A DNA stretch of 64,000 nucleotides, taken from NCBI GenBank assembly GCA_019638355.1, contig JAHBTY010000002.1:387001-451000 (forward strand). The letters run 5' to 3'. Under the pieces are notes generated by a model that was not told where the DNA came from, ran no database searches, and saw only the letters and a list, made by a program, of their open reading frames with translations. Both the position numbers and the translations under genes were made by a program. Position 1 is the stretch's first letter. The number at the start of each line of letters is the position of its first letter. Positions 22,177 to 53,459 of this stretch are shown here, one piece after another. This DNA comes from Cyclobacteriaceae bacterium (GTDB lineage Bacteria; Bacteroidota; Bacteroidia; Cytophagales; Cyclobacteriaceae).

Positions 22177-23742
22177 ATGCGCATTCAGAAACTGGAACTG
22201 GCCGATACCCAGGCTTTCTCTTCATTCTTTCTCGATTACATTCATGGAAAAGAAGCTCTTAAATCGTACTACTCACAATTTCCCCGCATTGAAAATTTTA
22301 AAACCCAGATTGAAAGCAAAGCCAAATCGTTTCCGCAACAGAATAGAAACACTTTAGCGGAAGTACTGCAGGAACAATACAAAGGGCTAACAATTTCAAC
22401 ACTCACCCAAAAAAATCTTGATGCGCTTAAAAACCAAAACACGTTTACGGTTACTACAGGTCACCAACTCAATATTTTTACCGGCCCGCTTTATTTCGTT
22501 TATAAAATTGTAACGGTAATCAATGCCTGCAAGCAACTGAAACAACACTATCCTGACTACAATTTTGTTCCGGTTTATTGGATGGCGTCCGAAGATCATG
22601 ATTACGAAGAGATAAAATACTTCAGAGCCTTTGGGAAAAAATATGCGTGGGAAACTAATCAGATCGGAGCTGTAGGCCGATTTAATCCAAGGTCAATTGA
22701 AAAACTTTTCGATCAGGTTCCGGGTGATATTTCCATTTTCAAAAATGCCTACACTAAAAATAAAACCTTAAGTGGAGCCGTTCGGCAGTACGTAAATGAT
22801 CTGTTTGCGGATGAAGGTTTAGTAGTAGTGGATGCTGATCATCCAAAACTGAAACGGATCCTTGCACCAGTCATGAAGGCCGACATCCTCGAGAATACTC
22901 CGGCCAAATTAGTAAACCAAACCAATCAACAGCTAGAAAAAACTGGTTATCACCCACCGGTGAATGCTCGTGACATAAATTTCTTTTACCTGAAAGATGC
23001 GTTGCGTGCCCGCATTGAAAAACGTGGTGAAACTTTTCACGTAGTGGATTCAAAACTTTCATTTAGTAGTGAAGAAATACAATCGCGAATTGAAAGCAAC
23101 CCCGAAGAGTTTAGCCCGAATGTAATCTTGCGCCCGCTTTACCAAGAAATGATTTTACCTAACCTGGCATACATTGGTGGTCCTGCTGAATTGGTGTATT
23201 GGCTCGAACTAAAAAAAGTGTTCGATCACTTTGAGCAACCCTACCCTATTTTATTGCCCCGCAACTTTGCAATGGTGGTAGATGCACCCACCGATCGCAA
23301 AATGAAAAAAACCGGCATTGATTTAAAGTTATTCTTCGCGCAAAAGAATTTTATTTTCAATCATTGGGTGCTGCATAACTCAACACAGGAACTTACCATC
23401 AGCAAAGAAATGCAACAGGTAAGCGTGTTGTTTGAAAAATTGCAGGTTAAAGCCAATTCCATTGATGCCACTTTAACACAATTTGTTGGTGCTCAAGCCA
23501 AACGCACTGCCAATGCGCTTAATCGCATTGAACAAAAAATGCTGCGGGCAGAAAAACGCAGACATTCAGACAAACTTCAGCAAATTGAAGCAGTAAAAGA
23601 TGCGTTGTTTCCAAATGGCAACTTGCAAGAGCGTACCGACAATTTATTAAACTTCTATCCGGCCGATTCGCAATTTATTCAACAGCTTTTAATGCACTTC
23701 GATCCGTTCGATTTCCGGTTTTATACCTTGATTTATGAATAA
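22177..23742 (+). CDS. bshC: bacillithiol biosynthesis cysteine-adding enzyme BshC
   Basis: 521 residues. The N-terminal TTGHQLNIFTGPLYFVYKI and VPVYWMASEDHDYEEI motifs are diagnostic of BshC, which joins cysteine to glucosaminyl-malate in the last step of bacillithiol synthesis. A coiled coil near the C-terminus (about 430-490) is also typical. It means this cell uses bacillithiol as its low-molecular-weight thiol; ytxJ at 39059 supports this. The gene overlaps the next one by 8 bases. Confidence 0.95.
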   Translation: MRIQKLELADTQAFSSFFLDYIHGKEALKSYYSQFPRIENFKTQIESKAKSFPQQNRNTLAEVLQEQYKGLTISTLTQKNLDALKNQNTFTVTTGHQLNIFTGPLYFVYKIVTVINACKQLKQHYPDYNFVPVYWMASEDHDYEEIKYFRAFGKKYAWETNQIGAVGRFNPRSIEKLFDQVPGDISIFKNAYTKNKTLSGAVRQYVNDLFADEGLVVVDADHPKLKRILAPVMKADILENTPAKLVNQTNQQLEKTGYHPPVNARDINFFYLKDALRARIEKRGETFHVVDSKLSFSSEEIQSRIESNPEEFSPNVILRPLYQEMILPNLAYIGGPAELVYWLELKKVFDHFEQPYPILLPRNFAMVVDAPTDRKMKKTGIDLKLFFAQKNFIFNHWVLHNSTQELTISKEMQQVSVLFEKLQVKANSIDATLTQFVGAQAKRTANALNRIEQKMLRAEKRRHSDKLQQIEAVKDALFPNGNLQERTDNLLNFYPADSQFIQQLLMHFDPFDFRFYTLIYE

Positions 23743-45963: not shown

Positions 45964-46803
45964 ATGACTAATTCCAAAGAACTTTTCAGCGAAGTAGTAA
46001 GACAAATTACCTTACCTGAGGCAAAAGCAGAAATAGAAAGTATTGTTTACCTGCTATTTGAAAAGAAATGGAAACTTACCCGCACCCATATTATTGCTGA
46101 AACGAAAACCGGTTTGCAATTGAATGATATAATGCCGTTAATAGATCGCATTAATTCGCACGAGCCCATACAATACATTTTAGGTGAAGCTGATTTTTTC
46201 GGAAGAGTATTTAAGGTTACACCCGATGTGTTGATTCCAAGACCGGAAACCGAATTGTTAATACACGAAATTCTCAAAAACACAAAATCAATTGATAAAC
46301 CTAACGTATTGGACATCGGAACGGGAAGTGGTTGTATTGCAATATCATTGGCGTTGGAAATGCCTTGCGTTGTACAGGCTATGGATGTGAGTTTAAATGC
46401 TCTTAAAGTTGCGCAGGAAAATGCTACGCTATTAAGCGCACCTGTAAAGTTTTATCTGCAAAATATCTTACAGCAACCTATCATTGAAAAGTTTGATCTG
46501 ATTGTAAGCAATCCGCCCTATATCTCACAACAGGAAAAACAACACATGAAACAAAATGTGTTGAACTATGAACCGCACACAGCCTTATTTCCAATTGGTG
46601 ATGATCCACTTGTATTTTATCGGGTAATAGCGCAGTCGGCTCAACAAGCATTAAATACAGGTGGATCGTTATGGTTTGAGATTAATGAACATTATTCCAA
46701 AGAGGTTAGTGAAATAATGATCACAAATGGATTTGGAGATGTAACCGTGGTAAAAGACTGGAATGGAAAGGAGCGTGTGGTTTGGGGAAAGAAATTAGCT
46801 TAA
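45964..46803 (+). CDS. prmC: peptide chain release factor N5-glutamine methyltransferase PrmC
   Basis: 279 residues from the ATG at 45964 (an upstream ATG at 45928 overlaps the ribD start and is less likely). The helical N-terminal domain is followed by the methyltransferase with VLDIGTGSGCIAISLALEM, the hallmark LIVSNPPYISQQE and FEINEH. It methylates the glutamine of the GGQ motif in release factors RF1 and RF2. It overlaps the convergent TPK-like gene by 9 bases. Confidence 0.94.
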   Translation: MTNSKELFSEVVRQITLPEAKAEIESIVYLLFEKKWKLTRTHIIAETKTGLQLNDIMPLIDRINSHEPIQYILGEADFFGRVFKVTPDVLIPRPETELLIHEILKNTKSIDKPNVLDIGTGSGCIAISLALEMPCVVQAMDVSLNALKVAQENATLLSAPVKFYLQNILQQPIIEKFDLIVSNPPYISQQEKQHMKQNVLNYEPHTALFPIGDDPLVFYRVIAQSAQQALNTGGSLWFEINEHYSKEVSEIMITNGFGDVTVVKDWNGKERVVWGKKLA

Positions 46804-47370
46804 CTCCTCTCCTACCCAAAACAATTTCCCGGCATTCAATCTAACCACACCATCCTTTTCAATACTGAATCTACTATTTAAAAATTCCGAGCACGAATCT
46901 TTTGGAAAACAGTGCAACACCGTTCCCATCGGCAACCACTTTTCAAAACGACCAGACTTTACCCGGCTCCACCGAATATTATTCATAAACACTTCCATAT
47001 CGCCATTAAAGCCGGATAACCTTAAAAGTAGCTGTGTGTCCGATGCCAGCCAGTTTACAGCTGGTATGGTTCGGGATTGTAAAAATGAAATGGCCTTGTC
47101 TATGGCAGATTCTTCCGCACTAAATGAAACTACCTCAATTGGCTGCTGCTCTTTGGTGCGATCAATCCACATAGCCTCTTCGATTATGGGCACCAGCACT
47201 ACATCTATTTTAATTCCCCACCCCAATACGGTTTCAATTTGTGAATGCAATACGATTATAGTGGGCATCCACTCCAACAGTTCCTGAACTTTTTCAAAAG
47301 GTATTGCATGCGCCTCCAGAATTACAAGTGCTGGTTCCTGGTTTTCGCGCACAATGTGATGGCTGGACAT
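46795..47370 (-). CDS. thiamine-pyrophosphokinase-like fold protein, active site degenerate
   Basis: 191 residues. The N-terminal MSSHHIVRENQEPALVILEA and the layout VLHSQIETVLGWGIKIDVVL recall thiamine pyrophosphokinases of Cytophagales, and a beta-rich C-terminal part (about 120-190) fits the TPK B1-binding domain. The usual acidic loop (D-G-D-x-D-S type) is not visible, so catalysis is doubtful. It may be a diverged paralogue; the name is tentative. Confidence 0.5.
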   Translation of the reverse strand: MSSHHIVRENQEPALVILEAHAIPFEKVQELLEWMPTIIVLHSQIETVLGWGIKIDVVLVPIIEEAMWIDRTKEQQPIEVVSFSAEESAIDKAISFLQSRTIPAVNWLASDTQLLLRLSGFNGDMEVFMNNIRWSRVKSGRFEKWLPMGTVLHCFPKDSCSEFLNSRFSIEKDGVVRLNAGKLFWVGEELS

Positions 47371-47617: not shown

Positions 47618-48805
47618 CTATTCAAAAAAGCAAACAGAACCGCCTACCCAGGTTTTGTCTTTATTAAATTTTACACCAATCATTTCGCCACGGCTAAGGC
47701 GCGCCAGGTTGGTGATAAGTTTAGGGCGGGATTCGTTTTCGTTCCATAAGAACAACAAGCGAATTTCTGTTTTCACCAAACCATCGGGCGCTTGTATTAC
47801 GGGTTCGTAATGCACCTTGCGTTGCAACATAAAATTTTTACGATCTTCATGAGGAATGGCATCCAAATCGTTTTGCGTAACATGAAAAATTACACCACTT
47901 CCTGAAAAAGAAAAGAGCGGCTTCAATACATATTCTTCCAGGTTTGCCGGCCAGGTGGAGTACTCATGTAAAAATTTACATTCAGGCACAGCATCGCTCT
48001 GTACAAACGGCATGGTGTATTTACTGATGTAGAAAAACCAATTGGGATGCCCTGCCCATTCTACATCTACATCTTCCGTTAGATTAAATTGTGTTTTCAA
48101 ATCTTTTTTCGCCAACAATTCATCGAAGATTACCCGATTATAAATGCGGTGTACCGGAGTTTCAACTCCGTTTTTTTTATAAAACAATTTCCTCCCTCTG
48201 ATAATAATATCTCCCAAATGAACGGGCGCAATACCAAGATGTTTCTGCGTAATCAAAAAATCGATAGCTGTATTTTGTTGCAGCGGATTGATTTCGAGCA
48301 GAATTACATTTTCAGGATTGTGTTTTCCAACAATAGCCTCGCGTAGTTGTTGCCAGTAGGTTGGCGAGTTTAATCCAAAATGAAAATGCAAATCGTCAGG
48401 GATTTTATAATGCTCACGAAACTTATTCCCCAAAAAATCCTGGTACCCAAACAACGAAGGGAACCCTTGCATTTCAATTAATCGAGGAACGCGTTCACCA
48501 TTTTCAGAACACACCGCAAAGTCCAGCGCAATGAATAATGAGTTTGCCGTTTCGTTGGGAACATTAAGGTTTGATGGAAGCGCACCCTGCATTTTTGTTT
48601 TGAAGTTGGGCTGCACAATTACATCAATGATTTCGTTAGCAGCTTTGAAAAGTTTTGCGCTAAACTCTTTACCTACAAACACCGGGCTTTCTGCAACCCG
48701 AAATGGAATTTTGTAATTAAACTCACGATCCAGATCAGCAATAAAATTTTTATACTTCTCTTCCGAGAACTGTTGATTAAATAGCTGTCGGGTATAGGGT
48801 ATCAT
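47618..48805 (-). CDS. ATP-grasp-like ligase A of the amidoligase cluster
   Basis: 395 residues. The N-terminal 170 or so residues are unlike known domains to me (PRLIEMQGFPSLFGYQDFLG is notable). The C-terminal half has features of an ATP-grasp fold: a glycine-rich loop after a lysine (YVLKPLFSFSGSGVIFHV), then FMLQRKVHYEPVIQAPDG and an E-x-R pair (VKTEIRLLFLW) where the Mg/ATP acidic residues are expected. No signal peptide. If correct it activates a carboxylate as acyl phosphate for attack by an amine. It overlaps the upstream amidotransferase gene by 4 bases and is the last gene of the five-gene unit. Confidence 0.62.
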   Translation of the reverse strand: MIPYTRQLFNQQFSEEKYKNFIADLDREFNYKIPFRVAESPVFVGKEFSAKLFKAANEIIDVIVQPNFKTKMQGALPSNLNVPNETANSLFIALDFAVCSENGERVPRLIEMQGFPSLFGYQDFLGNKFREHYKIPDDLHFHFGLNSPTYWQQLREAIVGKHNPENVILLEINPLQQNTAIDFLITQKHLGIAPVHLGDIIIRGRKLFYKKNGVETPVHRIYNRVIFDELLAKKDLKTQFNLTEDVDVEWAGHPNWFFYISKYTMPFVQSDAVPECKFLHEYSTWPANLEEYVLKPLFSFSGSGVIFHVTQNDLDAIPHEDRKNFMLQRKVHYEPVIQAPDGLVKTEIRLLFLWNENESRPKLITNLARLSRGEMIGVKFNKDKTWVGGSVCFFE

Positions 48806-49641
48806 ACTATAACTGAACTTAGGCGGTTGCGAAGAGCCAGCATTAAAAATCGAGGAACTACCGTGGCATAGGTGAGCATAATCTTATCAGGATCGTTCAG
48901 GTGGTTCAACATCTCCCAATATTTTTTCTCACCATGCTTTTCGATTACGAGCGCTTTCTTATCATCACGCAACAGGTACATCCGCATGCCCGCTGCATCA
49001 GCCTCCGGGTGAAACTGCATGCCGATTATCGCATCGTTAAACCGAATAGCCATTACGGCCCGCTCCAGATCTACGTGCGGACGATATTTTTCAATACACA
49101 ATAAGGCTCCCCCTTCGGCTTCAATTTTCTCAACATCCGGTTGGGTAATCTGGTAATCGCGCGAGTCAACAGCCCACATGGGGTTGCCCAACGAGCGAAA
49201 TAAAGGATCGTGCAAACCTTCGGTAGTTTTATGAACAGGCATTACGCCAAACGAGGTTGACTTTCGCTTTGTGAGTACACCCAACTCATAGTACCGGCAA
49301 TAAATCTGGAAGCTGTGGCAAATCAACAATACATGTTTCTTTTTATCGGGATATTGCTGATTATGATCTTTGATAGAATCCATTAACGCGAAGTAGCGTT
49401 CTTCCCATAACGAGCCGGCACTATCCAACGGACTACCGGGCCCGCCCGATGAAATATAGGCATCATACTTTAAGTCGGGTACTTCATTCTTACTGCGTAC
49501 ATCGAATATCTCATACACGATGTTGAGGTTGCAATCACTCGCAAAACTTGAGATCAGTTGTTTAATGCCGCGCATCCCCTCATTCGCTTCGCCCTCATAC
49601 AAATCGAGCACGGCAATTTTGATCTGGCTTTCCTGAATCAA
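48802..49641 (-). CDS. class I glutamine amidotransferase-like protein of the amidoligase cluster
   Basis: 279 residues. The triad of class I glutaminases is visible: nucleophile cysteine in VLLICHSFQIYCRYYELG and histidine-glutamate in IIGMQFHPEADA. The oxyanion segment SSGGPGSPLDS is present near residue 65. No synthetase domain is fused. It may release ammonia from glutamine for a partner ligase or cleave gamma-glutamyl bonds. It lies 10 bases after the GCS2 gene and overlaps the next gene by 4 bases, which implies tight co-expression. Confidence 0.85.
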   Translation of the reverse strand: MIQESQIKIAVLDLYEGEANEGMRGIKQLISSFASDCNLNIVYEIFDVRSKNEVPDLKYDAYISSGGPGSPLDSAGSLWEERYFALMDSIKDHNQQYPDKKKHVLLICHSFQIYCRYYELGVLTKRKSTSFGVMPVHKTTEGLHDPLFRSLGNPMWAVDSRDYQITQPDVEKIEAEGGALLCIEKYRPHVDLERAVMAIRFNDAIIGMQFHPEADAAGMRMYLLRDDKKALVIEKHGEKKYWEMLNHLNDPDKIMLTYATVVPRFLMLALRNRLSSVIV

Positions 49642-49651
49642 TTTTTTTGGT

Positions 49652-50749
49652 TTAAAGTCCGCGCAAGGTTTCGTCTGTTATGTAGTCCACTACTTTTTCC
49701 AAACTTCCGGTTTCTTTAAAAACTGCCAATTGTCTGTCGGCACCGGTTCCTTGCTCCAATATGGTGCGAATATAGTTGATCGCATTGCGGCTGCCAAGTT
49801 CATCCACTACATCATCGATAAACTCGAGCAACTCAAGTATTAATCCGCGTGTATCAAACTCAGTTTGTTTACCAAAATCAATCAGGCGGCCATCCAATCC
49901 ATAGCGTGAGGCACGCCATTTATTTTCGTTGATGAGTGCTCTTGTGTACATAATAAAACTCATGTTCTGCAAGCGTAGCTTGTACAACTTTACAACCAAC
50001 GCCTGAAACACTGCTGTGATAGCTATAGTTTCTTCCACACGCATGGGCACATCGCAAATGCGAAACTCAATGGTATCGAAGAACGGATGTACGCGCACAT
50101 CCCACCAGATTTTTTTAGCATTGTCGATGCAATTAGTTTTGATGAGCAGGTTTACATAGTTTTTGAAATCGTCCCAGCTATCAAAGCGATCGGGAATGCC
50201 GGTGCGTGGAAATTTATCAAACACCTTTGTGCGAAACGATTTGAAACCCGTGTTGCGGCCCTCCCAAAAAGGAGAATTACAACTAAGGGCATACACGTGC
50301 GGCAAAAAGTAGCGCACCGTGTTTTGAATATGAATAGCCATATTCTTGTCTTTGATGCCCACATGCACATGCAACCCAAAAATTAAATTTGAACGTGCAG
50401 CTTCCTGCATCTCCTGCACAATTTCATCGTAACGCGGGTTAGGCGTAATCAACTGTTTACTCCAATGCGAAAATGGATGTGTGCCTGAAGCCCCGATTTT
50501 TAAACCGAGCGTTCCGGCCACTTCGCCAACAACTTTACGCAGGGTTGCAATTTCCTGATAGGCTTGCGTTACATCCTTACAAATACCGGTGCCTACCTCC
50601 ACTACAGCCTGGTGCATTTCGGCTTTTACACTGTCTTTTATAACATGTGCTGCCAGTTCAACTATTTTCTGATCGTGCGAGGTGAGTTCCCGCGTTTGCG
50701 GATCAATTACCATGTATTCTTCTTCAACGCCCAGTGTAAAGGTTTCCAT
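49652..50749 (-). CDS. GCS2-type carboxylate-amine ligase (YbdK-like)
   Basis: 365 residues. The start FTLGVEEEYMVIDPQTREL carries the metal-binding glutamates of the glutamate-cysteine ligase 2 fold; further motifs are GTHPFSHW, FGLHVHVGIKD, NSPFWEGRNTGFKSFR and WWDVRVHPFFDTIEFRICD, all typical of the YbdK group. These enzymes join a carboxylate to an amine with ATP, most often gamma-glutamate to an amino acid. True glutathione synthesis is unlikely because the cell uses bacillithiol. It is the centre of the five-gene unit. Confidence 0.9.
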   Translation of the reverse strand: METFTLGVEEEYMVIDPQTRELTSHDQKIVELAAHVIKDSVKAEMHQAVVEVGTGICKDVTQAYQEIATLRKVVGEVAGTLGLKIGASGTHPFSHWSKQLITPNPRYDEIVQEMQEAARSNLIFGLHVHVGIKDKNMAIHIQNTVRYFLPHVYALSCNSPFWEGRNTGFKSFRTKVFDKFPRTGIPDRFDSWDDFKNYVNLLIKTNCIDNAKKIWWDVRVHPFFDTIEFRICDVPMRVEETIAITAVFQALVVKLYKLRLQNMSFIMYTRALINENKWRASRYGLDGRLIDFGKQTEFDTRGLILELLEFIDDVVDELGSRNAINYIRTILEQGTGADRQLAVFKETGSLEKVVDYITDETLRGL

Positions 50750-50776
50750 AAGCCAACAGAATAATTATATCCTAAA

Positions 50777-51799
50777 CTACTTTTTCGATGATTTTGGTTT
50801 TGTTTCTTTGGCCGCTGCAACTTTGGTTGCTTTTGGTTTCACAAGGCCAGCCTCAAACGATGCAACTGAACTGGCAACAAATGTTCCCCACGTTAGGTTG
50901 TCCTTTCCTGGCTTTTGAATCTGCGCCCGCTCTACAGCCATTTTCGCTGCATGTTCCACTACCCAATCAAAATTTTCCTGGCCAACGGAATGTACATCAG
51001 CATCCGGAGCGGGGTTACAGAAGTCAATAGCATACGGCACGCCATTGCGCACGGCCATTTCCACCGTGTTAAAATCATAACCCAACGCATTACACAAATC
51101 CAACACATAATCGTGTACTTTCTTCAATAACTTTTCGGAGGCAGGGCCATTGTTGCTTTGATAACGCAAATGATGTGGGTTGCGTGGTTCGTATTGCATT
51201 ATGCGCACATACTTACGGCCCAGGCAATAACAACGGAAATAATCTTCGAAGATAATTTCCTCCTGCAACATCATTACCAGTTGACCGGTTTCGGCATAGG
51301 CTTTAAAGAAATCGTCCATGTTGTTGAGTTTATACACACTCTTCCAACCACCACCGGCATGTGGTTTCATATAAGCAGGCCAGCCAATGTGTTCAAAGAT
51401 TTTTTCCCAACTCAATGGGAACTTCAAATTGCTGAAAGAGTTTTCGCCTGTATCGGTTGGGCGCTCGTGCGAAGGAAGGATAACGGTTTTAGGAACCGGC
51501 ACTCCAATCTTTACGGCAAGTGCATTGTTAAAAAATTTTTCATCCGCACTCCACCAAAACGGATTGTTGATTACGGCTGTTCCTGAGATGGCAGCGTTTT
51601 TTAAATACGCTCTGTAAAAGGGAACATCTTGCGAAATGCGATCGATAATTACTGCATAATCGGTAGGTTCGGCCTGGCTTACCATATCAACTAGTACGGG
51701 CTCAGCTTTAATATCTTTCAATCCCATTTTATTAATGCGCTCAACAAATGCCTCGGGGAAGGTACGTTCCATGCCGTGCAGGATTCCAATCTTTTTCAT
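50777..51799 (-). CDS. ATP-grasp ligase B of the amidoligase cluster
   Basis: 340 residues. The order is a RimK/D-Ala ligase-like N-terminal domain (MKKIGILHGMERTFPEAFVE), the glycine-rich ATP loop PAYMKPHAGGGWKSVYKL, and the Mg-binding segment VPYAIDFCNPAPDADVHSV with the D-x-x-N pair of ATP-grasp enzymes. The last 25 residues (KPKATKVAAAKETKPKSSKK) are a flexible lysine-rich tail. It lies 33 bases after the esterase gene and 27 before the GCS2 gene. The likely job is a second amide bond. The substrate is unknown. Confidence 0.84.
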   Translation of the reverse strand: MKKIGILHGMERTFPEAFVERINKMGLKDIKAEPVLVDMVSQAEPTDYAVIIDRISQDVPFYRAYLKNAAISGTAVINNPFWWSADEKFFNNALAVKIGVPVPKTVILPSHERPTDTGENSFSNLKFPLSWEKIFEHIGWPAYMKPHAGGGWKSVYKLNNMDDFFKAYAETGQLVMMLQEEIIFEDYFRCYCLGRKYVRIMQYEPRNPHHLRYQSNNGPASEKLLKKVHDYVLDLCNALGYDFNTVEMAVRNGVPYAIDFCNPAPDADVHSVGQENFDWVVEHAAKMAVERAQIQKPGKDNLTWGTFVASSVASFEAGLVKPKATKVAAAKETKPKSSKK

Positions 51800-51832
51800 A
51801 TGATGCAGGTTTAGTTCAACTTAATTTTTTAT

Positions 51833-52543
51833 TTAACGGATTAAGGAAAGGTAATGCGGAAACATTTCGCGCCAGGCGGGCCAATCGTGTGGTGCATTTT
51901 GACGTACGTCCAACCAGTAGTTAACTCCCTTATTCTGCAGTACGTTAGCCATCTTCACGTTGGCATCCCAACACATATCGTGTGTGCCCGTGCCCAATAC
52001 CACATACATATCAGCAAAGTATGGGTTATGCGCATTCGGTATAAAATCAAGAGGGTTGTTGAAATACACGTTATCATCATAATATCCATCCAACTGATCT
52101 TTAATATCGAAGGCTGCCCCCATATTAAATACATACTTTACTACTTCCGGATGTTTAAATGCAAAGTTAGTGGCATGGTAGCCCCCAAAGCTACACCCGG
52201 CTGTAGCTACCCGCCTTACTCCCGTTTCGTGTTGTGCCAGTGGTACCAACTCGTCCAACAGCATTAAATCATACCAAATGTGATTGCGCACGCGGTCGGC
52301 CGGATGAATATTTTTATTATACCAACTCATTTCATCAATGCCATCTACACAATAGATTTTAACCAGGCCTTCATCTAAAAACCAGGCTACACTATCAATT
52401 AATTTAAAATCTTTATTCTCATTAAAATGCCCCATCGATGTGGGAAACAGAATTACCGGATAACCGCGCGTGCCAAAAGCCAGCACTTCAATATCGCGGC
52501 TAAGGCGGGGCGAATACCATTTATGATAATGTTCGTGCGGCAT
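51833..52543 (-). CDS. esterase-like alpha/beta hydrolase of the amidoligase cluster (COG4947-like)
   Basis: 236 residues. The nucleophile elbow is ATAGCSFGGYHA with S118, and the catalytic histidine is in NAPHDWPAWREMFP near the C-terminus. The fold is that of the PF00756 esterase family; there is no signal peptide, so it is cytoplasmic. Its start is 70 bases from that of the divergent second esterase. It leads the five-gene minus-strand unit and may trim, cyclise or hydrolyse the product of the ligases. Confidence 0.85.
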   Translation of the reverse strand: MPHEHYHKWYSPRLSRDIEVLAFGTRGYPVILFPTSMGHFNENKDFKLIDSVAWFLDEGLVKIYCVDGIDEMSWYNKNIHPADRVRNHIWYDLMLLDELVPLAQHETGVRRVATAGCSFGGYHATNFAFKHPEVVKYVFNMGAAFDIKDQLDGYYDDNVYFNNPLDFIPNAHNPYFADMYVVLGTGTHDMCWDANVKMANVLQNKGVNYWLDVRQNAPHDWPAWREMFPHYLSLIR

Positions 52544-52557
52544 AGGTTTGTAAGTTC

Positions 52558-52565
52558 TATTTTTG
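52558..52565 (+). promoter_or_regulatory. -7 element of the divergent esterase gene
   Basis: TATTTTTG, full match to TAnnTTTG, about 50 bases before the annotated TTG start and 30 before the alternative ATG at 52595. I found no equally good element for the five-gene unit on the other strand. Confidence 0.45.
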
Positions 52566-52613
52566 CGTGGGTAATTTTCCGTTGAAAATCGGAAATGCCT
52601 TTTAAAATAGCTA

Positions 52614-53459
52614 TTGAATTTAATTATTTCATACTTGGCCCCTGCTGCACATTATCAACTCGAAAAACTTACCGACATACATTCTAAGCTGCTGGAACGC
52701 AATACCGTGGTTGAAATATTTGTTCCGGAAGGGCATAGTAAGTCGGGCACAGGTTTTCCGCTTCTTATTTTGAATGATGGCCAGGATAGCGAGGCCATTG
52801 CATTAAAAGCCACACTGGAGCAATTAGCCGGGCAAAAAGCTATTCGCAACCCCATTGTGGTAGCGGTGCACGCAGGCGACCGAATGCAAGAGTACGGTGT
52901 TGCCGCAAAGGCCGACTTTAAAAAGCGAGGCACCAAGGCAAAACCATATAGCCGTTTTATTATGAGCGAGCTGATTCCATATCTGGAGTATCGATATGCA
53001 ATTTCAAAACAACCGGCCGAGCGGGCCATTGCCGGATTTTCATTGGGTGGACTATCGGCTGTTGATATTGGCTGGCATCATGACTACTTCGGGCGAATTG
53101 GCGCCTTTAGCGGATCGTTCTGGTGGCGTAAGCGCGACTCGGCCAGCCGGTTTTACTCCGAACATTATGATCGCATTATGCATCATCAAATCCGGAAAGG
53201 AAAATACCGCCCCGGATTAAAATTCTGGTTTCAAACCGGGTTGTTGGATGAGCAGAGCGACCGGAATAAGAATGGCGTAATTGATTCGATTGATGATACG
53301 TTGGATCTGATTGTGGAACTTACCAAAAAAGGATACCGACCCTTTCATGATATTCACTATCTGGAATTACCGCAAGGCGCACATGATTTACCAACTTGGA
53401 AACTAGCTATGCCAGAATTTCTGAAATGGGCCTTTCCTACACCTGCTCAGAAAGTTTAG
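52614..53459 (+). CDS. second esterase-like alpha/beta hydrolase of the amidoligase cluster; N-terminus uncertain
   Basis: Up to 281 residues. The nucleophile elbow is AIAGFSLGGLSAVD, and the histidine is in PQGAHDLPTWKLAMPEF; the fold is again PF00756-like (LLILNDGQDSEAI). The frame has no ATG near its beginning; the TTG at 52614 is the first usable codon. An ATG at 52595 in the neighbouring frame would read MPFKIAIEFNYFILGP and enter this frame if the CCCC near 52640 were CCC, so a frameshift or sequencing error at the N-terminus is possible. Divergent from the cytoplasmic esterase gene, it likely serves the same pathway. Confidence 0.78.
   Translation: MNLIISYLAPAAHYQLEKLTDIHSKLLERNTVVEIFVPEGHSKSGTGFPLLILNDGQDSEAIALKATLEQLAGQKAIRNPIVVAVHAGDRMQEYGVAAKADFKKRGTKAKPYSRFIMSELIPYLEYRYAISKQPAERAIAGFSLGGLSAVDIGWHHDYFGRIGAFSGSFWWRKRDSASRFYSEHYDRIMHHQIRKGKYRPGLKFWFQTGLLDEQSDRNKNGVIDSIDDTLDLIVELTKKGYRPFHDIHYLELPQGAHDLPTWKLAMPEFLKWAFPTPAQKV

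Follow-up and report, generated by a model that had tools for sequence, protein, structure and literature searches.

The route through glutathione to glutathionylspermidine employs the ligases GCS, GshB and GspS, and in Escherichia coli the protein Gss fuses the synthetase to an amidase that has the CHAP fold. In the Puu pathway of putrescine, the gamma-glutamyl ligase PuuA is paired with PuuD, a hydrolase resembling class-I glutamine amidotransferases (GATases). Amidoligase neighbourhoods, in which ATP-grasp and GCS-type ligases are found with peptidases and hydrolases, were reportedly delineated by comparative genomics as well (Iyer, Abhiman, Burroughs and Aravind are said to have described them in 2009). 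Here we analyze a block of six genes in a 64,000-nucleotide stretch (hereafter the window) of a Cyclobacteriaceae bacterium (GCA_019638355.1). The block encodes an esterase (EST1), an ATP-grasp ligase (AG1), a carboxylate-amine ligase (GCS2), a class-I GATase-like protein (GAT) and a second ATP-grasp ligase (AG2), along with a divergently transcribed second esterase (EST2). We conclude that the six genes almost certainly constitute one functional unit and that the product is probably a peptide or an amide, and we tentatively put forward a specific three-ligase scheme for its formation.

So how does this operon compare with the systems already described? It resembles the glutathionylspermidine route in its ligase classes (a GCS-type ligase, an ATP-grasp and a permuted, GspS-type ATP-grasp) and, presumably, in the coupling of a C-N hydrolase to the last ligase; it differs in that AG1 is not GshB, AG2 is just a remote relative of GspS, the hydrolase is class-I GATase-like rather than a CHAP amidase, and the hosts tested have BshC. 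With the Puu pathway it shares the pairing of a gamma-glutamyl ligase and a class-I GATase-like hydrolase, whereas the ligase classes differ and the six genes include no oxidase or dehydrogenase. The operon is a variant within the amidoligase operons, a class already known; it likewise combines ATP-grasp and GCS-type ligases with hydrolases. Another point of comparison is the pathway for E-64, which shares with the operon a standalone ATP-grasp that is independent of non-ribosomal peptide synthetases, with homoglutathione synthetase and YgiC/YjfC among the closest structures; this pathway is fungal and starts with an oxygenase, and the accessible passages of the article mention neither a GCS2 nor a GATase (PMC12568646). 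Judging by titles, the openings of abstracts and some passages, we recognized no published description of the operon or its product, in agreement with an earlier reading of this DNA (the original prediction), which knew of no product for the arrangement.

Conservation of the six-gene unit

The host genome comprises 4.49 Mb, and the window lies on its contig 2 at 387001-451000. Calls of open reading frames (ORFs) reproduce exactly the six genes that the original prediction placed at 47618-53459: EST1, AG1, GCS2, GAT and AG2 are transcribed in this order, with gaps of 33, 27, 10 and -4 bases, such that the start of AG2 overlaps the stop of GAT by 4 nt, and EST2 diverges from EST1 at a distance of 70 bases. 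When this neighbourhood was sought in other genomes, all six genes, with order and orientation kept, were present in 22 of the 30 close-relative loci found with GAT (in one of them, L060, GAT is in two pieces), and the arrangement is therefore more than chance. Four of the 30 loci are truncated, with the contig ending inside AG1 or close to it (L038, L042, L044 and L049), and four deviate (L055, L056, L057 and L059); in L057, from Pollutibacter soli, the genes are present at wider distances from one another. In the close relative L037, identity to the window is 95-97% for EST1, AG1 and GCS2, 87% for AG2, 79% for EST2 and 76% for GAT, and five flanking genes are 60-89% identical. The flanking genes of the window accompany the block in many close relatives and are seen in 3 of the 58 AG1 loci outside this set; hence, the block persists in changing surroundings.

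We further counted strong matches in a sample of 296 Bacteroidota genomes from 139 genera, with AG1 detected in 108, AG2 in 92, GAT in 70 and GCS2 in 103 genomes (about ten of the GCS2 matches are distant, with <41% identity). Both ATP-grasps are encoded in 89 genomes, AG1 only in 19, AG2 only in 3 and neither in 185, a co-occurrence with a Fisher p of 3e-52 when genomes are treated as independent of phylogeny; p is 6e-28 once the 49 genomes that have both genes within 8 kb are removed, and 3e-26 when counted by genus, with no correction for phylogeny beyond the genus. In 30 genomes from 17 genera and 7 families, a stretch of at most 10 kb contains AG1, GCS2, GAT and AG2, and this conserved block supports the claim of the original prediction that three amide-forming ligases belong to one unit. 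No plasmid-borne copies of AG1 or AG2 were found.

It is extremely unlikely that these genes have no common pathway and are linked solely through ancestry and lifestyle. The limited correction for phylogeny and the dispersal of the genes in several families would suit that explanation, whereas the clustering of the four core genes in 7 families, the persistence of the co-occurrence after removal of neighbouring pairs and the near absence of the window flanks from distant AG1 loci all speak against it. The free variation of gene neighbours that the original prediction had named as an argument against a pathway is not what is found for the core, although in several families the genes are scattered (AG1 and AG2 are at most 8 kb apart in 49 of the 89 genomes with both). 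Of the other 40, just 7 carry the two genes on a single contig with more than 20 kb between them.

A separate observation concerns L046 and L060, in which an unrelated 381-aa gene (L046:5635-6780 and L060:5641-6786), presumably a DUF1016/PDDEXK nuclease, is inserted between AG1 and GCS2.

Three intact ligases and the likely affinity of AG2

The claim that the active-site motifs are intact is borne out by alignments of sequences picked by length and, for the esterases, also by identity, in which at least 96% of the sequences share the following residues: K145/E247/D259/N262 of AG1 (65 sequences), E111/Q113/K295/G302/G304 of AG2 (53), the C108/H211/E213 triad of GAT (55), S118/D189/H219 of EST1 (39) and S143/H257 of EST2 (32). 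In AG2, moreover, E111-x-Q113, followed by K295-P296...G302-x-G304, is invariant in 28 diverse sequences, and this placement of E-x-Q ahead of the lysine-glycine loop is the circularly permuted order of ATP-grasps. We take the E-x-Q/N motif to be the metal site and the K-P segment to be the glycine loop. In E. coli YgiC, the counterpart of the E-x-Q motif (AG2 109-113) is E-x-N (113-117), and the lysine-glycine loop reads YVVKPIFSREGANV where AG2 has YVLKPLFSFSGSGV; the order and spacing of the motifs are similar in the two proteins, as is the length (386 aa in YgiC and 395 aa in AG2).

The family scans covered Pfam and NCBIfam at E up to 0.1, and on its own AG2 yields no match there and none in the PDB at E 1. 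A profile built from the 28 sequences retrieves YgiC as the best solved structure (7uk8, E 0.0063), and 14 of these 28 members match PF03738 (GSP_synth) at E up to 10, the best at 5.2e-5, with CP_ATPgrasp_2 (5), ATPgrasp_ST (4) and CP_ATPgrasp_1 (3) as the other matches. When ten members were scanned singly, three matched PF03738, all under the Pfam cut-off; the AG2 of the window does not match PF03738 and so is not a member of GSP_synth at the gathering score. A search of 60 genomes with the same family identified over-cut-off members as separate genes in 9 genomes and a single AG2 match (in G045), again under the cut-off. Local hhalign comparison of the AG2 profile with E. coli K-12 Gss, YgiC and YjfC yields a co-linear match of 59 columns (p=6.7e-5), compared with p of 0.28 and 0.32 for AG1 and GAT, respectively, as controls. 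Judged by these profile and motif comparisons, AG2 very probably belongs to the GspS class. What the original prediction called a second ATP-grasp-like protein is corrected here to a circularly permuted ligase, very probably of the GspS/YgiC type. AG1 and AG2 show no detectable homology (hhalign p 0.49).

The RefSeq name for both YgiC and YjfC is peptide--spermidine ligase. Two articles refer to YgiC and YjfC as recently characterized peptidylpolyamine synthetases (PMC12568646) and report YgiC itself to be without Gsp synthetase activity (PMC12506659), respectively. The stretches of the E. coli genome that we viewed have no GCS2, ATP-grasp or GATase annotated next to YgiC and YjfC, and the sequence similarity of these proteins to AG2 is low.

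With AG2 as a remote relative of GspS and YgiC, the three ligases of the operon correspond in fold class to GCS, GshB and GspS of the glutathionylspermidine route. GCS2 matches PF04107 and is a member of PRK13515 (NF010039; 533.8 bits against a cut-off of 371, over residues 2-364 of 365); it is the sole match of its kind in the host genome. AG1 has no Pfam match and weakly matches LysX and RimK (E 1.8e-6 and 2.4e-6, far under the cut-offs of these NCBIfam models); from these matches, together with those of the AG1 profile to D-Ala-D-Ala ligase and biotin carboxylase (E about 7e-4), AG1 is an ATP-grasp of the canonical order. The remote relationship with RimK and LysX, families that act on the C-termini of proteins or carriers, brings up the alternative that the operon tags proteins or another polymer with a peptide, in the manner of RimK or Pup, rather than making a free metabolite; with the tight gaps leaving no space inside the operon for a carrier or tag gene, we consider this distinctly unlikely. 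Several AG1 matches (in G198, G279, G320 and others) carry in-frame stops, which may lie beyond the true C-terminus. A graspetide, that is, a ribosomally synthesized and post-translationally modified peptide, is a less likely product, with no space inside the operon for a precursor gene either.

Variable hydrolases and a tentative peptide-amine scheme

GAT matches PF00117 (38 bits against a cut-off of 22.8), and the best solved match of its profile is 3l7n, a GATase-like protein without an assigned name (E 2.8e-5). The original prediction considered this protein a glutaminase. However, GAT is missing from 35 of the 89 genomes that encode both AG1 and AG2, and in some of these unrelated hydrolases occupy its place; therefore, GAT is probably not an obligatory supplier of ammonia, and a C-N hydrolase paired with AG2 is the more probable role. 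Across the sample, GAT and AG2 occur together in 55 genomes, AG2 without GAT in 37 and GAT without AG2 in 15.

The replacement genes are of two kinds. In L131, L132 and L138, from families f56, f64 and f37 and from GAT-less genomes, a gene resembling M29 aminopeptidases is located between GCS2 and AG2 (the Pfam assignment was run on L131 alone). In 10 loci, AG2 directly follows an Amidohydro_3 gene, with a 4-nt overlap in 6 of them (Pfam was run on L191 and L148 plus a further cluster member, L153). Among the 76 AG2 loci, the same-strand gene at most 30 bp upstream of AG2 is GAT in 32 (24 of these pairs come from the close-relative set), Amidohydro_3 in 10, GCS2 in 1 and another gene in 5; within 250 bp, the respective counts are 37 for GAT, 10 for Amidohydro_3, 2 for M29, 1 for GCS2 and 14 for others. 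Among these other genes are those for a CNNM-type membrane protein, a beta-helix protein, an aminotransferase, NamZ and an SSF symporter. In the underlying gene maps, L121 is empty and L123, L124 and L128 are incomplete.

A longer permuted ATP-grasp, denoted c15, adjoins AG1, GAT or both in seven regions (L120, L122, L123, L125, L126, L127 and L130) of genomes in which no AG2 was found, and its profile matches the putative GspS 3n6x (E 1.7e-8). The homology between c15 and AG2 is just weak (hhalign p 0.0046), and we therefore refer to c15 as an analogue of the same fold class. Peptidase genes, of the S33, M29 and M17 families, recur across the mapped loci: an S33 proline-iminopeptidase-like gene is present in 7 of the 30 close-relative loci, L155 has another S33-like gene 52 bp ahead of AG2, and L151 (and L157, as judged by clustering) has an M17 aminopeptidase together with a third ATP-grasp.

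We propose that the product of the operon could be a small non-ribosomal peptide-amine conjugate, made by three successive ATP-dependent ligations and capable of being reopened. GCS2 would couple an amine or amino acid to a gamma-carboxylate, most likely that of glutamate; AG1, as an ATP-grasp of the RimK/Ddl-like kind, would extend the product of GCS2 to a gamma-glutamyl-type peptide; AG2 would then put the final amine on the C-terminal carboxylate of this peptide, and GAT or its stand-ins would hydrolyze an amide in the resulting product, in the way of the amidase half of E. coli Gss. EST1 and EST2 might process esters or thioesters of the precursor or product. The order of the steps, the substrates, the use of glutamate, the amine, the direction of the hydrolase and the role of the esterases are what we infer, and the scheme as a whole, three ligases and hydrolase together, is possible rather than probable. 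It does replace the vague notion of an ATP-grasp cluster with a three-ligase scheme that has one named analogue, and it singles out AG2 as the enzyme whose amine substrate would reveal the product.

Several observations weigh against this scheme or against the place of AG2 in it. The likeness of AG2 to GspS and YgiC is remote and comes mostly from one stretch of ~60 residues; the PF03738 scores shown for the AG2 family span 11.5-21.3 bits, all under the cut-off of 29.3, and forced global hhalign of AG2 with Gss, YgiC and YjfC gives nothing (p 0.85-0.88). TIGR01380, the glutathione synthetase model, is absent from the AG1 matches at E up to 0.1, and GCS2 is missing from 5 of the 89 genomes that have both ATP-grasps, with a single family accounting for four of the 5. 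As for the hydrolases, the pairing of Amidohydro_3 with AG2 is restricted to families f42 and f45, and in 27 of the 76 AG2 loci the 250 bp ahead of AG2 contain no GAT, M29 or Amidohydro_3 gene, in a few cases owing to gene-caller misses or a small intervening ORF. The second-best solved match of the GAT profile is 2vdj, a homoserine O-succinyltransferase (E 3.4e-4), so that an acyl-transfer role for GAT is possible. Breaks between contigs could explain some of the remaining genomes that do not have AG1 and AG2 within 8 kb. Norspermidine finds no support as the amine, with nspC over its cut-off in 4 of 74 genomes, 3 of the 40 with AG2 and 1 of the 34 without, and a polyamine as the amine substrate is unsupported. 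Finally, the 4-nt overlap of GAT and AG2, found in the window and in 24 of the 29 AG2 loci of close relatives, is a point in favour of a different reading.

Under that reading, implied in the original prediction, GAT and AG2 form a glutamine-dependent amidotransferase, with ammonia freed by GAT used by AG2 to make a primary amide on the peptide from GCS2 and AG1, by the logic of CarAB or MurT-GatD. The intact class-I triad of GAT and the glutamine at Cys+4 are also compatible with this possibility. The absence of GAT from more than a third of the AG1+AG2 genomes and the presence of other hydrolase genes at its place in some argue to the contrary, as do the 15 genomes that have GAT without AG2, although in 6 of the 10 mapped ones c15 is next to GAT. 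Furthermore, the nucleophile motif ICHSFQ is without the usual glycine. On balance, an amidotransferase appears unlikely.

The co-occurrence of a gamma-glutamyl ligase with a class-I GATase-like protein also invites a Puu-like interpretation, whereby GCS2 and an ATP-grasp would glutamylate an amine so that it can be taken up or detoxified, and a PuuD-like GAT would release it. Symporter sequences next to AG2 in family f46 go in the same direction: in L184, an SSF symporter gene (PF00474) is 18 bp upstream of AG2, and in L135 (6637-9240, genome G181), AG2 shares one open frame with a stretch that looks, by eye, like a sodium:solute symporter. In L136, of the same family, an ORF related to the L184 symporter lies 104 bp upstream of AG2, and a link of AG2 to uptake in f46 is possible on the strength of this gene context. 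However, three ligases exceed what such amine handling would need and, as mentioned above, no oxidase or dehydrogenase is among the six genes; we regard a Puu-like function as rather unlikely.

If the peptide-amine scheme is true, the finding of both ATP-grasps in 89 of the 296 genomes means that the product would be a metabolite common in one major group of bacteria, the phylum Bacteroidota. In its broadest form, the proposal would be that about 30% of the sampled Bacteroidota possess, alongside bacillithiol, a reversible, glutathione-independent system for a peptide-amine conjugate resembling glutathionylspermidine, in which a GspS-type synthetase of its own makes the conjugate and a hydrolase of exchangeable type (class-I GATase-like, M29 or amidohydrolase) regenerates the peptide; this generalization, too, is possible rather than probable. 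The pairing of a synthetase with a hydrolase may then have arisen with unrelated hydrolase folds.

Esterases, thiols and surrounding sequence

Table 1. Genes of the block and the spacer between the divergent esterase genes (positions in the window)
Feature	Position	Strand and start	Description
EST1	51833-52543	(-)	236 aa; alpha/beta-hydrolase, PF00756-type; first gene of the operon
AG1	50777-51799	(-)	340 aa; canonical-order ATP-grasp ligase, remote RimK/LysX/Ddl relative
GCS2	49652-50749	(-)	365 aa; YbdK/PRK13515 carboxylate-amine ligase (gamma-glutamyl ligase class)
GAT	48802-49641	(-), TTG start	279 aa; class-I glutamine-amidotransferase-like, Cys-His-Glu intact
AG2	47618-48805	(-)	395 aa; circularly permuted ATP-grasp, probable remote GspS/YgiC-type acid-amine ligase
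EST2	52614-53459	(+), TTG start, exact start uncertain	at most 281 aa; second PF00756 esterase, divergent
EST1/EST2 divergent intergenic region	52544-52613		70 bp

Both esterases match PF00756 in Pfam, and EST1 is on the AG1 strand at most 6.5 kb away in 37 of the 85 mapped AG1 loci. The nearest named family of EST2 is the enterochelin esterase PRK10439 (E 3.4e-15), which raises the possibility of a siderophore or another ester-linked metabolite, with EST1 and EST2 as enterochelin-esterase-like releasing enzymes; but the EST2 score is 55.9 bits against a cut-off of 222 (EST1 reaches 14.3 bits), PF00756 is a broad family, and the six genes include no iron regulator or TonB receptor, which leaves this explanation highly unlikely. 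Neither esterase matches any S-formylglutathione hydrolase model in NCBIfam at E up to 0.1.

The original prediction discounted glutathione as the product on the grounds that the genome uses bacillithiol, and both statements stand. BshC is encoded in the window at 22216-23718 (+) and exceeds its cut-off in each of the 79 genomes tested, whether or not they carry the cluster; accordingly, a thiol that would substitute for bacillithiol was rejected as the product of the operon. The glutathione synthetase model is over its cut-off in 1 of 40 genomes (21 have some match, the rest of which fall below), and in the genome of the window the match is on another contig and far under the cut-off, so that glutathione is rejected for most hosts. 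A role in anti-phage defence was rejected as well, with PADLOC matching none of the six proteins at E up to 0.01.

Presumably, the spacer between EST1 and EST2 is the site of both promoters. A promoter scan produced 10 sites compared with 13.7 in shuffled sequences, that is, no excess, whereas terminator-like sites were in excess (13 compared with 6.9). No tRNA was found in the window, and no Rfam RNA element reached the gathering score there.

Some neighbouring genes deserve mention. Downstream of AG2, a 191-aa ORF (46795-47370, -) without a Pfam or NCBIfam match is present in 15 of the 30 close-relative loci and is fast-evolving (31-83% identity). On the other side of the block, a DUF5615 gene (PF18480; 53709-54050, +), the product of which we take to be PIN-like, adjoins a HAD hydrolase gene. 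In family f42 (L142-L144, L209, L211 and L213), AG1 adjoins a histidine-ammonia-lyase gene, with some of the pairs overlapping or nearly so (the assignment comes from NCBIfam hutH, 685 bits, for L144 and from clustering for the other loci).

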